Below the pieces are notes generated by a model, which saw only the letters and a list, made by a program, of their open reading frames with translations, was not told the origin of the DNA and made no database searches. Positions 10,649 through 23,101 of a stretch of DNA of 28,755 bases are shown piece by piece. The translations under genes and the position numbers were made by a program. Within the stretch, counting starts at the first letter, position 1. Every line of letters starts with the position of its first letter. The DNA comes from a virus: IMG/VR virus record IMGVR_UViG_3300003690_000070, positions 1 through 28,755 of that record; one strand, 5' to 3'.

Positions 10649-10990
10649 ATGACACAGCAGTTCCCTGGATTCATTGACCCACAGGATATACTGGGCGAAT
10701 CGCCTGAACTGACCTTCTTCTCGTTTCAGGACCAGTTTGGGGGGCAGGGCAGCCCTGGCGGTGGAGGGCAGAACCAGCGCAACTTCTTCCGGGGTCAGTT
10801 TCGCAACTTCTTCAACGAATTCCTCGGCATTCGTGGGCAGGGACTACGGGAGGGGCGGTTTCCAACCGACACTTTCCAGGACTTCATGGGCGGCATTGAC
10901 TTTGGGCAACGATTTGCTCAAATTGCGCCGTCTCTAAGAGGGGCAGGCACGGCCCAATTTGCGCCGTCTACACGGTTTCTTCAGTTCTGA
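10649..10990 (+). CDS. Gly/Phe/Gln-rich small phage protein (113 aa)
   Basis: AGGAGG lies a few bases before the ATG. The sequence is rich in Phe, Gly, Gln and Asn (FFSFQDQFGGQGSPGGGGQN) and ends with two related short segments, AQIAPSL and AQFAPST. It looks low-complexity and structural. Its TGA overlaps the ATG of the HNH gene (TGATG). Function unknown. Confidence 0.6.
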   Translation: MTQQFPGFIDPQDILGESPELTFFSFQDQFGGQGSPGGGGQNQRNFFRGQFRNFFNEFLGIRGQGLREGRFPTDTFQDFMGGIDFGQRFAQIAPSLRGAGTAQFAPSTRFLQF

Positions 10991-11619
10991 TGGCCACCGC
11001 TGAATATCATCGCGAGTGGAGGCGTATGAATCGGGAACGTCACCTTGAAGTACGCCGTGCTCATCGTGTACGTAATCGGGAGAAGTTAATCGCTCAGTCG
11101 CGCACGCTTTATCAGGATGGAGGGCTTGAACGTGCTCGCAACTATAGAGAAGATCATCGCGAGGCCGTTAATGCCCAAGCCCGTGCGGGATACGCGGCTA
11201 ATCGAGAAGCCCAAAAGGCTCGAATGAAGAAATGGCGCTCTGAAAATAAAGAACTTGCCCGTGAGTTGACTCTCCGGTGGGAGAAAGCCAACCCTGAAAA
11301 AGCGCGGGCGGTCCGTCAGTCATGGAGGGAGCGTAACCGAGATCGCTTCAATGCAATTGGACATCGATACCGTGCTCGTAAACGTGGACTTGCTAGCACT
11401 TTAACCCCTGAGCAATGGGGGGCCATCAAACAGGCATATGGGCATTGCTGCGCATATTGTGGTGGCAAACCCAAGGTATTAGCACAAGATCATGTAGTGC
11501 CTGTTAGCAAAGGTGGTGGCTACACTCCGGATAATATTGTCCCTGCCTGTTCTGTCTGCAACGGGTCCAAGGGGAACCGGCCTCCGTCGATTATCCCTTC
11601 TCTTCGGTTGATGGTTTAG
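10990..11619 (+). CDS. HNH endonuclease (209 aa)
   Basis: The C-terminal HNH fold is plain: CAYC at 154-157, DHVVPVSKGGGYTPDNIVPA with the His-Asp metal-site pair near 167-168, and CSVCNGSKGNR. Four Cys would hold a structural zinc. The first 130 residues are a long Arg/Glu-rich helical region with repeated RxNRExxxA-like units, as in free-standing phage HNH proteins. Such enzymes often act as homing endonucleases, and this one sits as a clean cassette between structural genes. Codon use is more AT-rich than in the neighbours. A packaging-associated HNH nuclease is the alternative, but those usually lie next to terL. Confidence 0.88.
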   Translation: MATAEYHREWRRMNRERHLEVRRAHRVRNREKLIAQSRTLYQDGGLERARNYREDHREAVNAQARAGYAANREAQKARMKKWRSENKELARELTLRWEKANPEKARAVRQSWRERNRDRFNAIGHRYRARKRGLASTLTPEQWGAIKQAYGHCCAYCGGKPKVLAQDHVVPVSKGGGYTPDNIVPACSVCNGSKGNRPPSIIPSLRLMV

Positions 11620-14600: not shown

Positions 14601-16152
14601 ATTGGCGCCTGATTTCATGGTCAAGAACCCTCAGCGGGACCAGTTGACTGCTTTCGTGTACTCGCGATACGGATTCCTGCCAGCCGTTGACTGGATCAGG
14701 GGTATTTGGCAGATACTTGGCAGACCTACTCCCAGGGGGAGGCAGGGAGGGGATTTATATGCCCTGTGGCGTATGTCGGGCGGCGAAATGGCTAATTTGG
14801 TGTCCGTTGACCGCACGATCTCTGGCCGTACTGTTGACCAGATCGTCAAGGCCAACGGGTTCACTGGCAGGATCGTTAAGAACCCCATAGAGATGCTTCG
14901 TGTTGCCAGCGAGTTCGCCGAGAACGGCACCAGGGTGGGAGAATTCGCTAAGGGGATTCGGATGGGAGACGACCCGTTGGCCGTAGCGTTCGCTTCAAGG
15001 GAAGTGTCGCAGGACTTCAGCAAGATGGGTACGGTGACGCGGGCGATCAACCAAATCATCCCGTTCTTCGGGGCGAACGTAGGCGGCTGGTCGAGGCTGG
15101 CGACCGAGGCCAAGACACGTCCTTTCCATGCGGTGACTAAGGCGTTCCTGGGGATTACGTTGCCTTCCCTGCTGCTTTACAGCCTGAATCGGAACGACCC
15201 ACGGTACGCCGATACCCCCCAGTGGCAGAAGGACCTATTCTGGATTATTCCCAACGCAGGGCCGCGCATTCGTATCCCGAAGCCCTTCATGTTGGGCCAG
15301 GTATTCGGCTCCATGCCAGAGCGGTTCTTGGAATTTGTGGACACGCGCGACCCCGAACTCTTTACGGAGTCCCTGCGCAATACCATCCAACAGGGCACGC
15401 CTGGCTTTCTACCGCAAGCAGCCTTGCCGTTTATCGAGAACATGACCAATCATAGCTTCTTCCTTGATCGCCCAATTATCCCGCGAGACAGAGAGGATGC
15501 CCCGTCACAGTTGCAATACAGCGGAACGACATCGGAGGCGGCAAAAGCCTTGGGCAAGTTGGCCAATGTCTCTCCTGCACAGCTTGATAACATCTTCTAC
15601 GGGTACACGGGAACCCTGGGAAGGAACTTGATAGAAGCTATTGACCCCGTGCTGAAGGCAACTGGGATCACTCCGAATATCCCTGATCCGTCCAGAGAAC
15701 TCTCCGACATTCCTGTTTTGCGATCTCTGGTAGTTCGAGACCCGAGCGGCTCCAGCAGCAAGTCGGTGAACCGTTTCTACAAGAAGCTGCAAGAATTCGA
15801 GGGGATGGAGAAGGTATATAGGGAGCACCTCGCGCTCGGGCAGCAACAGGCAGCCAACGACTTCAAGGATAAGAACCCTGAAGCTGGCCTCTTCTATGAT
15901 TCTGAGTACAGGACGTATTACTCATCGGCTGCCAGGGCTTTGAGGAGAGTGGCAAGGCAGATGTCTGAGGTCCGTTCCAAGCAGAGAAAAGTGTTCAATT
16001 CCCGCACGATGACACCAGCAGAGAAGCGCGTTGCGATAAACAGCCTGAATAGTAAACTTACCGCTCATGCACGGCAAGCGTTGGACAAGTTGAAGGGTAT
16101 CCTGGAAGCTGGCCTCTTCTATGATTCTGAGTACAGGACGTATTACCCGTGA
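11620..16152 (+). CDS. large polyvalent virion protein with LPD38-like region (1510 aa)
   Basis: This is a giant phage protein probably carried in the virion and perhaps injected. The first 330 residues are low-complexity Pro/Ala/Arg-rich, with two copies of PVSPAEP. A globular part starts near residue 625 (FKESKLSIVERFRSGLRGLD). From about residue 977 (FFGAPARWLRAGAVLAPDFM, then VKNPQRDQLTAFVYSRYGF) to about 1450 it resembles the large polyvalent protein-associated domain 38 of phage proteins. The usual helical end (MTPAEKRVAINSLNSKLTAH) is followed by an extra tail that repeats AGLFYDSEYRTYY from 75 residues earlier. The gene follows the HNH gene directly and ends in GTGA overlapping the next gene. 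Confidence 0.75.
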   Translation: MPQHTEQDRLRKLLEDAIADDERRERESKSRSEMLQNAIEEDRQRTKPAPAPAPMPTAQPATEAQFRAAAAQGRRGAIPVAPPVSPAEPPVSPAEPPGLINQFASFLVGESGREIARRGEILGRRLVQPSIGLAREGRLTPTEEVFRNLPQRLQQPSQGPGGTLGRTLANLVSGTGTEAPFTEEELNNPWIQAVAAVPPGTPIAPLAGALLRSTLLRTGVGQRLLTRGAPPAIAPPVQQGRGLPRPTRLPTTRAARAGDAPVPQVGDEVVWLQLKDDGTTFTESGTVIREGMQGVEGLQSPHYTVRIERTGAEAALGANIKNLRVGRVRLKTDPRPLTDDPVADFHQSRAYDVARARDAPAPAATQQRFFERVVPPTTAEGRPRFSVPESTPQLTLQEFKQPKVIRGLLDRLMKREGGQRLNAAQLTSMRSFLNRFGASPFETSVGAEPALGRFVVSPSSGERVFILGAYNDQAGARFFVTFNPAKKTFALDAQLGEEVSVALGRPGRATLEEVEAFQGQAEKLFGRELRGREIGVLPETPVGQLESRELVRPTVPSIEGEGTLIRAQRAGAEEVGQFVKPARPEQIPIPPSPQAARAATVPERAAIATERAAITRPGVGPATARVLEQISFKESKLSIVERFRSGLRGLDNAVFDDLNPIARFVAEAERGGLELSAAENPYIWSRLLKGVGGKSNTFIDTGTFGKQIWRIENGQAVPNFTGPGLRQVLAPVDEGLPFELFSAHLVDRRVIELDAKGIVSGIKRADAAKSIVELQRTHPEFDQIARQVYAYQDRLLQYGQESGLFSPAMVARLRQYRNYVPFHRVLEGMETKGLLGRKLANVASPIKKITGSERPIISPLESVIKNTHVIIDSADRNQVGVMMARLAEESPELRPLFRAVRTPTSKEATVTAKELGISIEGLAEADAELLVDAFRPMTYAKNANEVTVLINGEKRFFEVDPDLYRGLLALDKQDLGMFGKFFGAPARWLRAGAVLAPDFMVKNPQRDQLTAFVYSRYGFLPAVDWIRGIWQILGRPTPRGRQGGDLYALWRMSGGEMANLVSVDRTISGRTVDQIVKANGFTGRIVKNPIEMLRVASEFAENGTRVGEFAKGIRMGDDPLAVAFASREVSQDFSKMGTVTRAINQIIPFFGANVGGWSRLATEAKTRPFHAVTKAFLGITLPSLLLYSLNRNDPRYADTPQWQKDLFWIIPNAGPRIRIPKPFMLGQVFGSMPERFLEFVDTRDPELFTESLRNTIQQGTPGFLPQAALPFIENMTNHSFFLDRPIIPRDREDAPSQLQYSGTTSEAAKALGKLANVSPAQLDNIFYGYTGTLGRNLIEAIDPVLKATGITPNIPDPSRELSDIPVLRSLVVRDPSGSSSKSVNRFYKKLQEFEGMEKVYREHLALGQQQAANDFKDKNPEAGLFYDSEYRTYYSSAARALRRVARQMSEVRSKQRKVFNSRTMTPAEKRVAINSLNSKLTAHARQALDKLKGILEAGLFYDSEYRTYYP
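11866..11907 (+). repeat. two tandem 21-bp units in the giant gene
   Basis: CCTGTCTCTCCGGCTGAACC begins a 21-base unit present twice in a row without change, encoding PVSPAEP twice. It is a recent in-frame expansion in a disordered Pro-rich segment. Confidence 0.8.
15880..16146 (+). repeat. 42-bp perfect direct repeat at the 3' end of the giant gene
   Basis: The 42-base stretch at 15880-15921 is repeated exactly at 16105-16146, 225 bases (75 codons) later and in frame. Both encode AGLFYDSEYRTYY. In the first copy the helical C-terminal domain continues after it. In the second copy the protein ends three bases later, and the GTG of the Com-like gene starts there. Confidence 0.85.
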
Positions 16153-17196: not shown

Positions 17197-18069
17197 ATGG
17201 TACAGTCAGCGACTACCGGAAATCTAGCCAACGCCCAGAGGATCATGATTGCGGCCACGCGATTCACGGAGGAGCATAACGCGCCTGCGATGGCCCTGAC
17301 GGAGCAGTTCACCCTGAAGAGGGGCGATAAGCAGGTGACGGTGCCCAAGGTCGGCCAGATGACCATTGTGGACCTGGTCGATGGACAGGACATCACCGAC
17401 AACGAAGACATCGGCATGACCACGATTGACTTAACCGCTGCCGAGGTCGGGGCCAAGGTCGTCTTGACCGACAAGCTGGTCAGGCAGTCGGTTCCGAACG
17501 TCTTCTCCCTCGTGGGCAGACAGCTCGGTGACGGGATGGCCCGTAAGAAGGATACCGATGTCCTTGCCCTGTACACCAACCTGAACGGTGGGGTCACTCT
17601 GGGACTGGCAAGCAAGCCGCTATCGTCCATCAACCTGACCGGCTGTATCTCCTTCGCCAAGGCTAACAAGTTCGGCAGCAAGATATACGCCATCCACCAC
17701 CCCAACGCCGTGGCGGGGTTCGTCAAGAGCGCTGCGGTTGCGCCGGGTGCTACCTACCCTGTGCCGCTCGGATATGCCCAGGACTTGCTGAAGAACTTCT
17801 TCGTTGGTCTCCGACCGTTGAACGGGGTTCCGCTGTTTGAGGACGGCAACATCAGCGAAGACGGGGCTGGCGATGGGATTGGGGCCATTGCGGACCAGGG
17901 CGCGCTGGCGACTCTCACGTCGGTCAAGATGAATACCGAACGGCAGCGTGACGCTTCCCTGCGTGGCACCGAGGTCGTGATGACTTCCGACTACGGAGTG
18001 TTCGAGCTGGACGACACGAAGGGCGCGCCGATGACCTACGATGTCAGCGCCGTGATCACCAGCAACTAG
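17197..18069 (+). CDS. major capsid protein (290 aa)
   Basis: AAGGAGCC lies six bases before the ATG, a strong site suited to a highly expressed gene. The sequence has the features of HK97-fold capsids of marine and environmental phages: an N-terminal helical arm, then TIVDLVDGQDITDNEDIGMT and VVLTDKLVRQSVPNVFSLVG. Further on come GDGMARKKDTDVLALYTNL, IYAIHHPNAVAGFVKSAAV and a final EVVMTSDYGVFELDD strand. Length is typical. It directly follows the scaffold. A more exact family assignment (P22-like or N4 gp56-like) cannot be made by eye. Confidence 0.82.
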   Translation: MVQSATTGNLANAQRIMIAATRFTEEHNAPAMALTEQFTLKRGDKQVTVPKVGQMTIVDLVDGQDITDNEDIGMTTIDLTAAEVGAKVVLTDKLVRQSVPNVFSLVGRQLGDGMARKKDTDVLALYTNLNGGVTLGLASKPLSSINLTGCISFAKANKFGSKIYAIHHPNAVAGFVKSAAVAPGATYPVPLGYAQDLLKNFFVGLRPLNGVPLFEDGNISEDGAGDGIGAIADQGALATLTSVKMNTERQRDASLRGTEVVMTSDYGVFELDDTKGAPMTYDVSAVITSN

Positions 18070-18070
18070 C

Positions 18071-18547
18071 ATGAACACTGTGGAGAGAACTTACCTCAAG
18101 GGCGAACTCGCCAAGATGGGGATAAAGGGCGACTACCTTGACTCGTGGCAGCCACGAGGCCCTATGTGGCGTCACAAGCCGCAACTGAATATCTCGGGCA
18201 ATGAAGTTCAGCCTGCCGGAATAGAGATTCCCAACCAGCCGCTCTTATGGGACCACCAGTTACGAATGGCGGTACGGATAGGCGCCCTGCCGTGGAAGCC
18301 CTCCAAGGACTGCGGCTGCAAGCTGTGTCGGGAGCGGGACTGGAGCAAGGTGACGGTCAACGAAGAGGGCCACATCCACCTGATCGTTGAAAAGGAAAGC
18401 CCCGTTGGCAATTCTGACGCATTTGAAAGTTTCCAGACGAAAAGTATCAATCAGTGCCCGGATTGTGACTTCGTGGTCAAGTCAGACAGTAAGAATCCTG
18501 TGGGGAGTTTAAGATTCCACCGCATGGGCAAGCACAGAGAGACATAG
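18071..18547 (+). CDS. phage protein with C-terminal C2H2-like zinc finger (158 aa)
   Basis: It starts one base after the capsid stop. The first 70 residues read as a small globular part (LDSWQPRGPMWRHKPQLN). A CGCKLC cluster follows near residue 80. The end is a CPDC...H....H finger (residues about 132-155), in which CPDCDFVVKS and FHRMGKH supply the ligands. Similar proteins sit after the capsid gene in environmental phages without known function; a structural or nucleic-acid-binding role is possible. Confidence 0.65.
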   Translation: MNTVERTYLKGELAKMGIKGDYLDSWQPRGPMWRHKPQLNISGNEVQPAGIEIPNQPLLWDHQLRMAVRIGALPWKPSKDCGCKLCRERDWSKVTVNEEGHIHLIVEKESPVGNSDAFESFQTKSINQCPDCDFVVKSDSKNPVGSLRFHRMGKHRET

Positions 18548-18675
18548 GTAGCGTAGCCCACGAGGGCGCCAAAACCGCATGGCTGTAACGATTGGCCGAG
18601 GTCGTGCGGGGCAACACTATCGGCTGGTCGCAGGGCGCAGGCCCTGTAAAACGTAGCCTTGAAAGGGGTTTAGAA

Positions 18676-19425
18676 ATGTCATTTCCAGATTACGTAACGG
18701 GACTGGCTGGGTGGGAAAAGCAGACTACCTCTGGCAAAAAGCACCCTCTAGGTACGAAGATGCTTATAAGAGATAGGGCTTTTAGGTATGTAGAAGCTGC
18801 TGGCACAGAGATAGGCGAAGGTCTTTTGGTGGGTCAGCAAGCCGCTGTGACTACACAGGATGATGACCTTGCCGTAGCTACTACCGCTTCTGCTGGAGCA
18901 ACTAGTGTTTCTATCACCATTGGCGGTACTAATGCACTAGAGAAGAATGAGTACCAAGATGGGTACATCTTCAATAATACTGCTGCTGGCACAGCGGCTT
19001 TGATGTACAGAATTAAGTCACATCTTGCAGCCGATGCAAGTGCAAATGTAACCATCAACCTTGATGAGCCAGATGGGCTTGTAAACGCATATACAGCAGG
19101 AACAGACGTTGTAGGGTTGATAGGAAGCCCTTGGAAAGATATTGTTGTGGCTCCAACAACCACGCTAGGTATGACTGTTGGTTTAACTTGCAACACCATT
19201 CCCGCAAGTTACTACGGCTGGGTTCAAACAGTAGGGCCAGCGCTAGCATTGGTAGATGCTGCTGCTGGTACAGCGGTTGGAAGTGCGCTGATGACTGGTA
19301 CGAACCATGTAGGTCAGATGGAACTTTTGACCTATGAAGACGAGGCTTACCGAGCCGTAGCCACGCTAGGTAGCTTGGCTGCTGTAGACAACGAGTACGC
19401 CTTTGTACAGCTTTGCATAGAGTAG
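18676..19425 (+). CDS. capsid decoration-type structural protein, AT-richer copy (249 aa)
   Basis: The ATG at 18676 has AAAGGGG seven bases upstream; an in-frame TTG at 18592 would add 28 residues of non-native look. The protein opens MSFPDYVTGLAGWEKQTTSG and has KHPLGTKMLIRDRAFRYVEA. A beta-rich Ala/Thr body follows (SVSITIGGTNALEKNEYQDG, then NVTINLDEPDGLVNAYTAG), ending AAVDNEYAFVQLCIE. The order matches phage virion proteins placed after the capsid gene (decoration or head-surface). Codon use is clearly more AT-rich than in the capsid gene. A decayed relative lies directly downstream. Confidence 0.65.
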   Translation: MSFPDYVTGLAGWEKQTTSGKKHPLGTKMLIRDRAFRYVEAAGTEIGEGLLVGQQAAVTTQDDDLAVATTASAGATSVSITIGGTNALEKNEYQDGYIFNNTAAGTAALMYRIKSHLAADASANVTINLDEPDGLVNAYTAGTDVVGLIGSPWKDIVVAPTTTLGMTVGLTCNTIPASYYGWVQTVGPALALVDAAAGTAVGSALMTGTNHVGQMELLTYEDEAYRAVATLGSLAAVDNEYAFVQLCIE

Positions 19426-19438
19426 CGGCAACTGAACT

Positions 19439-20210
19439 GCCGAGAAGAAGCTCAGCACGAGCAAGCAGCGGAAGCTCGGCACACGAGGCGTCACCCCCGA
19501 CGGGCGTGTGTTCTGGTATTCCAGGGCTGGCGGGACGGCGCTGGCTAACGGCGTGTGCGTCTGCGCGAAGGCCCAGGAAGGGACGAACCAGCACGCCACT
19601 GCGCTGCTTCCGTCAACCGTTATCGGTGACTGGAGCGCCACTGCCCCATCGCCCGGTATCCCGATTGGCTCGGCCACCATCGGTGTCATCTGGGTGACGA
19701 ACCACTCTTCGGCGGAGTATGTAGATGGATACATGACCATCGAAACTTCGCCAGGGATGGGCACCTATCGGGTAGTGTCCGACCCTGATTCGGGCGACTC
19801 GTCAACTGCGACCACGATACGGCTGCACCCCGACGACACCATCACTCAGGAAGTGCTCACCACGGTGACCAGGTTCGGCTTCCACGCCAACCCGCATTCC
19901 TCAATGATAATCGTGCCCGCCACGGCTGAAGCTGCGGCGCTGACAGGGGTGGTTCTGGGCGTGACTTAGGTGGAAGTGCCGCTGGACAACTACTTCTGGC
20001 TTCAGTCCTCGGGGATCGCCCACGTGCGGTACGACGATCTGATAGCCGCCCTGATCGGGCACACGGTCATCAGCGGCCCTGGTAACCACCGGTGCGATCA
20101 CCACCCTATCCCAGCTCACCCTTGGCTCGTTCCCGGTGATGGGATACGCAATGAGCGCCATCCCCGCCGACGGCAAGTTCATGAAGGTAATGTTGACGCT
20201 TAGGAACTAA
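19439..20210 (+). pseudogene. decayed second copy of the decoration-type protein
   Basis: The frame AEKKLSTSKQRKLGTRGV then TPDGRVFWYSRAGGTALANG corresponds to the N-terminal part of the neighbouring decoration-type protein (KKHPLGTKMLIRDRAFRYVE). It has three defects. No start codon exists between the upstream TGA at 19433 and GTG 19508, which is too far inside. An in-frame TAG interrupts it at 19967-19969, after which the same frame continues EVPLDNYFWLQSSGIAHV. A +1 shift near 20075 is needed to reach the natural end ALVTTGAITTLSQLTLGSF...MLTLRN before TAA at 20208. It is GC-rich like the rest of the genome. Sequencing errors could explain single defects but not all three easily. Confidence 0.65.
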
Positions 20211-20241: not shown

Positions 20242-20490
20242 ATGGCTTTCAAGCAAGAGCGTCCTGGCGTCTGGTACAACAGGGCCGCACAGGGCGGCGA
20301 CATCTTCAAGGTTGTCCGACCACCGCAGGGGACTGGCCTATTGGCGGCCCCTCGGTACGCCATAGATGAACCGATAATCGAACCCGACGACATGGACCCG
20401 TTGCCTATCAAGATGCCCAACGCCGAGCAGGTGGCTGCGTTGCTGACGGACGTGCGGACCGTCGAGGAAGAGGCGTCCTTTGTCGATTAA
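20242..20490 (+). CDS. small phage protein of unknown function (82 aa)
   Basis: The start is fixed by AAAGGGG within the preceding hairpin. The sequence MAFKQERPGVWYNRAAQGGD, then FKVVRPPQGTGLLAAPRYAI, is followed by an acidic end (PDDMDPLPIKMPNAEQVAAL). I do not recognise it. It overlaps the start of the SAF-domain gene by 11 bases, which suggests coupled expression with the accessory cassette. Confidence 0.6.
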   Translation: MAFKQERPGVWYNRAAQGGDIFKVVRPPQGTGLLAAPRYAIDEPIIEPDDMDPLPIKMPNAEQVAALLTDVRTVEEEASFVD

Positions 20491-21094
20491 GAAACCCCTT
20501 GCGTTCTTCTTCGGCAAATATCGGTTCGCCTGGATTGATATGGCTAGGAGTCCGTTTATCATTGAGGTTGGGTTCGGCATCCCTAGAATAGTTCGGGTCG
20601 AGTTCCATTGGCTCCGTAAGGGAGCTACCGCACCCCGCAGAGTCAGGGTAGGCATACTTGGCCGTTGGAGCCGACGAAACGAAGAGGGGTGGCCTCTGAT
20701 TTACCTATGGGATTTGTGGTGGGTTGACTGGCATATTCTCGGCCCTGCTCCTTTTTGTGTATCTGGGCATTTTATTCAGGACTGGATGCACCTTGGATTT
20801 ATCCAGAACGTACGCTGGCGGTTAAACGGTGCGCATCGGAGGCGACATGAAGCAGCAAGACTCCTGGCGGCGTCCTACACCCTGGAGCGGCAGAAGAAGC
20901 TCGTCTGGGCCAAGACTGTTATCGCAGGCGATAGGCTAACTCGTGAACATTTTGCCATTCTCTCGCCAGGCGATGGTATTGCACCGTGGCAGATGGATAG
21001 ACTCATAGGTGGCAAAGCTGTTTGCGACTCTCAGGCAAACATGGATGTGACCTGGGAGGCTGTCATGACTAACCGAGAGGTGGTTCATGCCTAA
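20480..21094 (+). CDS. protein with a C-terminal NeuB-type SAF domain (204 aa)
   Basis: The TTG start has a purine-rich AGGAAGAGG upstream. Residues about 138-197 form a SAF (antifreeze-like) domain: VWAKTVIAGDRLTREHFAIL, then SPGDGIAPWQMDRLIGGKAV. The PGxGIxP motif is the signature of the C-terminal substrate-closing domain of sialic, legionaminic and pseudaminic acid synthases. The catalytic TIM barrel of those enzymes is absent. The N-terminal 130 residues are Trp/Arg/Phe-rich and unrecognised. It overlaps the cytidylyltransferase gene by eight bases, so a linked role in nonulosonic-acid chemistry is likely, but its activity is unknown. Confidence 0.7.
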   Translation: MSIKKPLAFFFGKYRFAWIDMARSPFIIEVGFGIPRIVRVEFHWLRKGATAPRRVRVGILGRWSRRNEEGWPLIYLWDLWWVDWHILGPAPFCVSGHFIQDWMHLGFIQNVRWRLNGAHRRRHEAARLLAASYTLERQKKLVWAKTVIAGDRLTREHFAILSPGDGIAPWQMDRLIGGKAVCDSQANMDVTWEAVMTNREVVHA

Positions 21095-21857
21095 CCCGTC
21101 GATAGTCGCGCTGATACCGGCCCGTGCGGAGAGCAAAAGGGTGCCTGGCAAGAACACGCGCCTGCTGGGCGGGCACCCCCTGCTGGCCTGGAGCATCGCC
21201 ACGGCGCGGGAGAGTGGGATATTCGGGGAGATCGTGGTTTCTACCGAGTCGGCAGAGATTGCTGACATGGCAGAGCGTTATGGCGCTTACACCATTGAGC
21301 GGCCAGCCGCGTTTGCAACTGACACCTCCCCGGATATTGAGTGGGTAAGGCACGCTATGGCGACTGTAGACTACGCGGCCTTCGCCATCCTGCGGCCTAC
21401 CAGCCCGTTCAGGACGGCAGAGACGATACGGTTTGCTTGGACGATGTTGCAGGGGGATACGGCTCATGCGGATTCGATCCGTGCTGTCGAGAAGTGCGGC
21501 CAGCATCCGTACAAGATGTGGACGGTTAACAAGCAGCGAGATCGAATAATTCCGCTGCATCCTGCCGCGCGTGGCGAACACCCCTGGCACTCCAGCCAGT
21601 ACCAGGCGCTGCCGGAGATATACGTCCAGAACAGTAGCCTGGAGATAGCCTGGACGCGGGTGCTGGACGGCGACCAGGCCCAAGCGGGCAACATCGTCAT
21701 GCCCTTCTTCACGGATGGCTACGAAGGGCTGGCCATCGACTACCCCCGCGACTTCGAGTACGCCGAGTTATTGCTGTCTCAGGGGAAAGTGACGTTGCCG
21801 CAACTGCTTGCTGGGCATAAAAAGCCCGTTGAGATACCCCATTACAACGAAGCCTAG
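21087..21857 (+). CDS. CMP-nonulosonate (N-acylneuraminate-type) cytidylyltransferase (256 aa)
   Basis: The enzyme joins CTP and a nonulosonic acid (sialic, legionaminic or pseudaminic type) to give the CMP-sugar donor. The nucleotide-binding start IPARAESKRVPGKNTRLLGG (residues 10-29) then HPLLAWSI is diagnostic. VVSTESAEIADMAERYGA and ILRPTSPFRTAETI follow in family order, as does the C-terminal YEGLAIDYPRDFEYAELLL with the metal-site Asp region. Length is close to the usual 225-235 plus a short tail. The exact sugar cannot be told. It lies between the SAF-domain gene and a transferase-like gene. Confidence 0.88.
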   Translation: MPNPSIVALIPARAESKRVPGKNTRLLGGHPLLAWSIATARESGIFGEIVVSTESAEIADMAERYGAYTIERPAAFATDTSPDIEWVRHAMATVDYAAFAILRPTSPFRTAETIRFAWTMLQGDTAHADSIRAVEKCGQHPYKMWTVNKQRDRIIPLHPAARGEHPWHSSQYQALPEIYVQNSSLEIAWTRVLDGDQAQAGNIVMPFFTDGYEGLAIDYPRDFEYAELLLSQGKVTLPQLLAGHKKPVEIPHYNEA

Positions 21858-22480: not shown

Positions 22481-22734
22481 ACAGGAACGGCCATGCTCCC
22501 GTGACGACCGAGGCGGTGCTGTTGAAGTCGGCGGTGGACGCTGACCTCGACTGCTGGGGCAAGATGGTCGAGGGGATGCAGGAGCAGGCTCGTCAACTTG
22601 TGCCCGGCGTCCTGGTCGGGAAAGAGGTAAAGAGCCGTCTCTGTCTCAGTTGCAGTGTCGAGCGGCACGGTCGAGCGCTCGTTGTCTTCCCCGACGAGCA
22701 TTATCACCTGAGTTTGGACGTGATCGGTGTCTGA
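22477..22734 (+). CDS. small phage protein of unknown function (85 aa)
   Basis: The ATG overlaps the previous stop (ATGA). It reads MNRNGHAPVTTEAVLLKSAV and DLDCWGKMVEGMQEQARQLV, later RLCLSCSVERHGRALVVFPD. A CxxC occurs but no second pair. Not recognised. It is coupled to the accessory cassette on one side and to the 124-aa gene on the other. Confidence 0.55.
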   Translation: MNRNGHAPVTTEAVLLKSAVDADLDCWGKMVEGMQEQARQLVPGVLVGKEVKSRLCLSCSVERHGRALVVFPDEHYHLSLDVIGV

Positions 22735-23101
22735 GCAAGACCTAAACGGCTACCTTTGGACGCCCGACAACATGGCCCACACGGCGGTTGACGACATCGT
22801 GGTGCGGCAACAGAACGAGGTGGCCACGGCGGTTACCTTTGCCTTTGAGTTCCACTACAAGGGGAAGGCGCATAAGGTTCAGGTGGTGGCCGAGTCGGAC
22901 GTGTCGCGGGCTCAGGTGGAGGATAGCGCGGCCAAGGTCGCTGAGAAGTGGATGCGGGAGATTGACGAGAAGGAGAGCAAGCGGCCTCCGACGGAAGACG
23001 AGAGAAAGCAGATCGGCAAGTCGATGAACGAGTTTCTGCAACACGCCAGGAGGCGGCGGCAGTCGAGCAACGGAAGGCTATTTTATCCGGGGGTGCATTG
23101 A
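22727..23101 (+). CDS. charged phage protein of unknown function (124 aa)
   Basis: GTG start, overlapping the previous gene by eight bases. The middle (TAVTFAFEFHYKGKAHKVQV) suggests beta strands. The C-terminal half is strongly charged and helical (AAKVAEKWMREIDEKESKRP), with an Arg-rich end ARRRRQSSNG. Function not recognised. Its TGA overlaps the ATG of the beta-helix gene. Confidence 0.55.
   Translation: MSEQDLNGYLWTPDNMAHTAVDDIVVRQQNEVATAVTFAFEFHYKGKAHKVQVVAESDVSRAQVEDSAAKVAEKWMREIDEKESKRPPTEDERKQIGKSMNEFLQHARRRRQSSNGRLFYPGVH

Follow-up and report, generated by a model that had tools for sequence, protein, structure and literature searches.

A phage decoration-type gene preceded by a conserved pseudoknot leader has very probably replaced a resident allele that persists as a remnant

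Introduction

How does a phage head locus come to hold two homologous genes in tandem, the first intact and the second without a start codon? The question is raised by a linear virus sequence of 28,755 bases from IMG/VR (IMGVR_UViG_3300003690_000070), analyzed here over its whole length and referred to as the window, which probably derives from an uncultured marine phage. The original prediction described an intact decoration-type gene (gene A) directly before a homologue (gene B) lacking a start and carrying a TAG at 19967 and a +1 shift, and proposed that a foreign homologue had displaced an old, now decaying copy. We compared the locus with its relatives to ask which event could have left this arrangement.

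Results

An intact gene and a broken homologue lie behind the capsid gene

The head genes of the window run in the order scaffold-like ORF (16371), major capsid protein gene, ORF158, gene A, remnant B, and ORF82 (20242), after which come cargo genes and then O124 (22727; Table 1). In most relatives, the O124 homologue directly follows the decoration-type gene, whereas here it lies 2.5 kb further on, behind the cargo genes. ORF82 was tried as a downstream anchor, and no relatives of it were found.

Table 1. Coordinates of the features of the decoration-type locus in the window
Feature	Position	Strand	Remarks
Major capsid protein gene	17197..18069	+	PF25209 Phage_capsid_4; phrog_617 and others; backbone reference
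ORF158	18071..18547	+	Conserved gene separating the leader from the capsid gene; 57-58% identical (aa) in L015/L017-L020
Leader RNA of decoration-type gene	18562..18675	+	Covariation, 182 loci
Leader P1	18575-18583/18601-18609	+	9 bp
Leader P2 (pseudoknot)	18589-18599/18620-18630	+	11 bp; crosses P1, H-type pseudoknot
TTGGCCGAG	18592..18600	+	P2 5' strand (in part) and one further base; placed by alignment with relatives whose genes are intact
Left recombination junction	18630..18676	.	Leader P3/SD region to start codon
Leader P3	18631-18635/18642-18646	+	
Leader P4, Shine-Dalgarno hairpin	18655-18658/18667-18670	+	
Gene A, incoming intact decoration-type gene	18676..19425	+	249 aa; homologues in L002-L008
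CGGCAACTGAACT, probable stub of donor's next gene	19426..19438	+	O124-type start, consensus TGnnnACnGAACTnTGGACTCC
Gene B remnant, codons ~13 to end	19439..20210	+	Frames and homology
Resident O124 gene	22727..23101	+	Synteny and downstream motif

Reading frames and family homology agree with the predicted arrangement. The frame of gene A is open throughout and is preceded by a ribosome-binding site. Gene B, which is homologous to A and shares about a third of its residues with other family members, aligns to the family profile from position 14 on. Its start codon is absent and an in-frame TAG stands at 19967-19969; past this codon, homology continues in the same frame to near 20076, then moves by +1 and runs to its own TAA at 20208. 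It is conceivable that B is a functional gene whose second, regulated product is made by recoding (TAG readthrough and a +1 frameshift), and the backbone-like third-position GC content (GC3) of its reading frames (0.76-0.82) fits such a role. However, B has neither start codon nor leader, and the capsid gene, ORF158, and A all end normally in TAG, so there has been no change of code; we consider recoding most improbable. Stop codon reassignment as an explanation of the TAG was rejected because of these three TAG-terminated neighbors. Instead, B would be an untranslated remnant whose TAG and frameshift arose after its displacement, and the backbone-like GC3 that its frames retain suggests that this decay is young.

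Gene A is discordant with the phage backbone

The relationships of gene A and of the capsid gene disagree. The product of gene A is 82-89% identical to those of phages L002-L008, although the capsid proteins of these phages are only 62-68% identical to that of the window; conversely, the phages with the nearest capsid proteins (L015-L020, 75-80%) carry alleles 33-52% identical to A. Gene B has no such counterparts: IMG/VR scans with B1 and with a B1-led alignment found, as the best intact relative, a gene only 37% identical. We infer the ancestral state of the locus, since the collection holds no relative of the same backbone carrying an intact B.

Two homologues in tandem could also result from an old duplication within the phage, followed by divergence and loss of the second copy. 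This would hardly give an A that is so similar to genes on other backbones beside a B that reaches at most ~37% identity to any family member, and it would have to act in a family that is otherwise single-copy: a near-full second copy was found in 1 of 272 loci with the gene, namely, in this window. B also lacks leader and start, and donor-type sequence lies between the copies (see below). Therefore, we regard tandem duplication as very unlikely.

Base composition proved a poorer guide. Gene A is indeed AT-richer than B, as predicted (GC3 of 0.40 versus about 0.75-0.76; capsid gene, 0.80), but low GC3 is a trait of the decoration-type family, which also shows values of 0.38-0.44 in GC-richer relatives, and B is the odd one out. 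AT-richness was thus rejected as proof of the foreign origin of A.

Both junctions point to an incoming segment rather than an insertion

On the left, the leader of the window resembles those of L015, L017, L018, and L019, which carry other alleles, rather than the leaders of A-type phages, and A-type identity begins at the ATG; the resolution of this junction is only ~45 nt. On the right (19438|19439), 13 nt that follow the stop codon of A run into codon 13 of B. This short stub, CGGCAACTGAACT, matches the start consensus of O124-type genes, TGnnnACnGAACTnTGGACTCC (profile match; P = 0.0007 relative to random sequence), and this match stops precisely at 19438, on the border of B. A resident-like leader together with a match to the start of the next gene suggests that the incoming piece consisted of A and the opening bases of the gene behind it in the donor.

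The mechanism originally predicted was different: an insertion of about 844 bases flanked by a GCCGAG duplication, with TTGGCCGAG (18592-18600) as the old start of B. The two copies of the hexamer do exist (18595-18600 and 19439-19444), lie 844 bases apart, and allow an in-frame join. However, with 22 occurrences on the + strand, the hexamer is not an unusual repeat in the window. Comparison with relatives, which the original prediction had called for, placed the upstream copy inside the leader conserved before the homologous gene, including leaders of relatives with other alleles, and gave no sign of an insertion with target site duplication; TTGGCCGAG is likewise part of that leader rather than a former start. 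Finally, the joined N terminus, MAEKKLSTSKQRKLG, taken in the prediction to be complete, lacks ~12 family residues, MAFPxxVxxxYG, that precede E14-K15. Because MAEKKLSTSKQRKLG lacks the family N terminus, the first ~12 codons of B must have been lost and not split off from a start at 18592. These data refute the insertion as described, and we give it next to no probability.

We also considered that the arrangement might be an artifact, with alleles of two strains assembled into one contig or with sequencing errors mimicking the lesions of B. The window is a metagenome contig without reads, and single-base errors could have produced its TAG or shift; they could not have removed its start and first 12 codons. 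Moreover, an assembler would find no long exact word common to two alleles at the A-B junction (19438) on which to join them, and a similar arrangement is present on several contigs of one other lineage (L047, L048, L051, and L134). An artifact is accordingly unlikely, if less so than the other alternatives.

In that lineage (L047, L048, and L051), an intact allele is followed by a truncated O124-type gene and then by a shred of a B-type C terminus. The C terminus of B is 63% identical to the L047/L048 shred over 30 residues (L051, 61%), and its last 130 nt are 75% identical at the nucleotide level to the L047/L048/L051 remnant. Both this lineage and the window carry cargo genes or relics between O124 and the locus. 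Together, the discordance of A with the capsid gene, the donor-type sequence between A and B, and this second lineage uphold the part of the original prediction that concerned displacement by a foreign homologue and decay of the old copy. We conclude that a recent xenologous replacement of the decoration-type gene, which brought in donor allele A with a stub of the next gene and left resident B as a remnant, is very probable.

The decoration-type gene is swapped recurrently among relatives

Among 97 nonredundant loci, 1,138 of the 1,633 pairs with capsid proteins at least 75% identical carry alleles that are less than 50% identical; in the pair L070/L089, the capsid proteins are 99% and the alleles 37% identical. 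Sharp breaks in similarity mark the borders of the gene. In 22 pairs with similar upstream DNA (81-97% nucleotide identity) and different alleles, similarity is lost 3-81 nt into the gene and, if the downstream sequence can be aligned, is mostly back within about 10 nt of the stop codon. L015 and L019, for example, are 99.2% identical over 6.4 kb downstream and 84.6% identical upstream, and the genes between are unalignable at the nucleotide level. The decoration-type locus is a hot spot for swapping, and clean swaps are the rule. The gene would thus behave as an exchangeable cassette, bordered on the left by the leader or start codon and on the right normally by the stop codon before the O124-type gene.

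In L017, L020, and L140, a terminator-like hairpin lies 3' of the gene, and its beginning resembles the O124 start (AACTCTAGACCCCGTAGGGG in L017). This sequence is possibly a relic of earlier swaps; as an O124 start remnant in L017 and L020, it is suggestive only.

A pseudoknotted leader is conserved upstream of the gene

A pattern scan, together with scans of the fetched loci, located 182 leaders in 182 loci; the decoration-type gene follows directly in 180, and contig ends cut the other two. Across 52 distinct leaders, 94.1% of cells were paired, compared to 79.0% when shuffled and at most 40.5% when slid; changes on both sides were seen in 233 cells (71 expected), and the covariation score was 0.456 versus 0.170. 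Covariation thus exceeded both the shuffled and the slid controls, as for a structured RNA. P1 alone was 90% paired over 9 bp in 76 leaders (56% with partners shuffled), while P3 adds no covariation because it is nearly invariant. A covariance model of the nested helices matched once per locus in 71 of 78 sources, many of them already in the model's own alignment, with matches ending at the start codon of the gene. In Rfam, the leader of the window had no match at an E value of up to 1, and four relatives had none at the gathering cutoff; the leader pattern was absent from cellular genomes (genome_contigs collection). Literature searches for pseudoknots linked to decoration proteins and for structured RNAs in the capsid genes of marine phages returned nothing.

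The leader keeps its place in front of the decoration-type gene in the different allele clusters, although the gene itself is swapped. Whether its halves follow backbone or allele received no firm answer, since all rank correlations were weak (0.07-0.15). The sequence CCTGCT(C/T)AAA after P3 occurs only with one allele cluster, a distribution which suggests that some crossovers fall inside the leader. Its position before the start codon and its Shine-Dalgarno hairpin are consistent with a leader that regulates translation. As the longest conserved stretch beside the gene, the leader could also supply the left homology for swapping. We lean toward the view that it represents a new phage regulatory RNA family, tied to one locus, that sets the dose of whichever allele is present and also serves as left homology for swaps.

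Variants of the leader were also observed. An extra palindromic insertion separates the P1 3' strand and the P2 3' strand at L180:5889-6018 and L197:685-815 (- strand), and a degenerate second copy lies just upstream of the intact leader at L022:2256-2404.

Position and weak fold matches suggest a putative decoration-type protein

Searches of Pfam and PDB profiles gave no sequence match for the family, a protein search with A returned a single weak match, and 1 of 32 family members matches a PHROG annotated as virion structural protein. The predicted fold of A is confident (pLDDT of 88.9) and matches the cyanophage Pam3 capsid 8hdt_G (probability 0.98), the phi29 gp8.5 head fiber base 6qyy (0.95), and the FCWL1 capsid 9kmg_b (0.98); these matches to the PDB are weak (E values of about 0.02-0.1, none at an E of ≤0.001), and those to DUF2190 models extend over only ~85-90 residues. 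The gene is the second after the capsid gene, and this synteny is conserved. From this position and the modeled fold, "decoration-type" is the best, albeit unproven, label, and a function as a virion surface (cement) protein would be in keeping with it.

Affiliation, cargo genes, and other features of the window

A DNA search against named phages gave no match. At the protein level, the capsid protein has ~30% matches in Pelagibacter phages, and its relatives at 58% identity come from contigs assigned by binning to Chloroflexota (in one case, to Dehalococcoidia). Chloroflexota may therefore be hosts of this phage group, which we offer as a lead only, read from contig binning. L288, a contig binned to a Bathyarchaeota metagenome-assembled genome, has relatives of the capsid protein (41%) as well as of the decoration-type gene (35-40%).

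Part of a nonulosonic acid pathway is among the cargo genes of the phage group. In the window, ORF204 (20480-21094) retains no more of a NeuB-type sialic acid synthase than its C-terminal part: homology begins at residue 91, behind an unrelated N-terminal half. L015 and L019 have a full-length NeuB in its place (PF03102 in L019). The cargo also includes a CMP-sugar cytidylyltransferase gene (21087-21857; PF02348). Among the head genes, 10990-11619 reads like a free-standing HNH endonuclease, with the motif CAYC...H..VP...GG....N..P.C..CN recognized by eye. The end of a 1,510-aa ORF (16050-16152) repeats an internal stretch (EAGLFYDSEYRTYY twice), perhaps through a short duplication.

Discussion

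The answer that best accounts for the tandem homologues is an allele replacement in a capsid gene, caught before the old copy was gone, so that it shows where such swaps join and in what order they probably proceed. We propose that recombination at the leader brought in a donor segment made up of allele A and ~13 nt from the beginning of the gene that follows it in the donor. The left crossover would have been homologous and would have lain in the leader, so that A took over the resident leader and ribosome-binding site. The right-hand joining would have been illegitimate and imprecise, falling at codon 13 of resident B, replacing its first ~12 codons and thereby depriving it of start and leader. 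With cargo genes separating O124 from the locus, the usual right-hand homology (the O124 start) may have been out of reach, which could be why the joining was imprecise and the old gene was left behind. Against this reason, L015 and L019 carry cargo too yet show a clean swap.

Close phages, with capsid proteins up to 99% identical, carry alleles only ~37% identical, as would be expected for a surface protein subject to strong pressure to diversify. Mosaic gene replacement is a familiar kind of event, seen here with the remnant of the old gene still in place. Greater novelty attaches to the conserved pseudoknot leader, an RNA element of an uncultured phage group that lends itself directly to experiment.

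Three known systems invite comparison. Like decoration and cement proteins (DUF2190-type, Pam3, and the phi29 gp8.5 base), the family described here is encoded close behind the capsid gene and has a beta-rich predicted fold, with weak matches between them; it differs in having no sequence match to Pfam or PDB profiles and in being longer (about 250 aa), with the matched proteins covering only part of it. The exchange itself resembles modular or mosaic phage gene exchange in its homologous position, its sharp breaks in similarity at gene ends, and a donor with another backbone from the same group. In contrast to such exchange, the swaps here concern a single gene and are very frequent, the RNA leader stays in place, and a remnant of the displaced allele persists in the window. 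In autoregulation of the T4 gene 32 type, a structured mRNA leader with a pseudoknot lies upstream of the ribosome-binding site. The leader reported here likewise has its pseudoknot on the 5' side of a phage gene's ribosome-binding site, but with another sequence, with no match in Rfam, and with its own architecture of a P1-P2 H-type knot, P3, and a Shine-Dalgarno hairpin.
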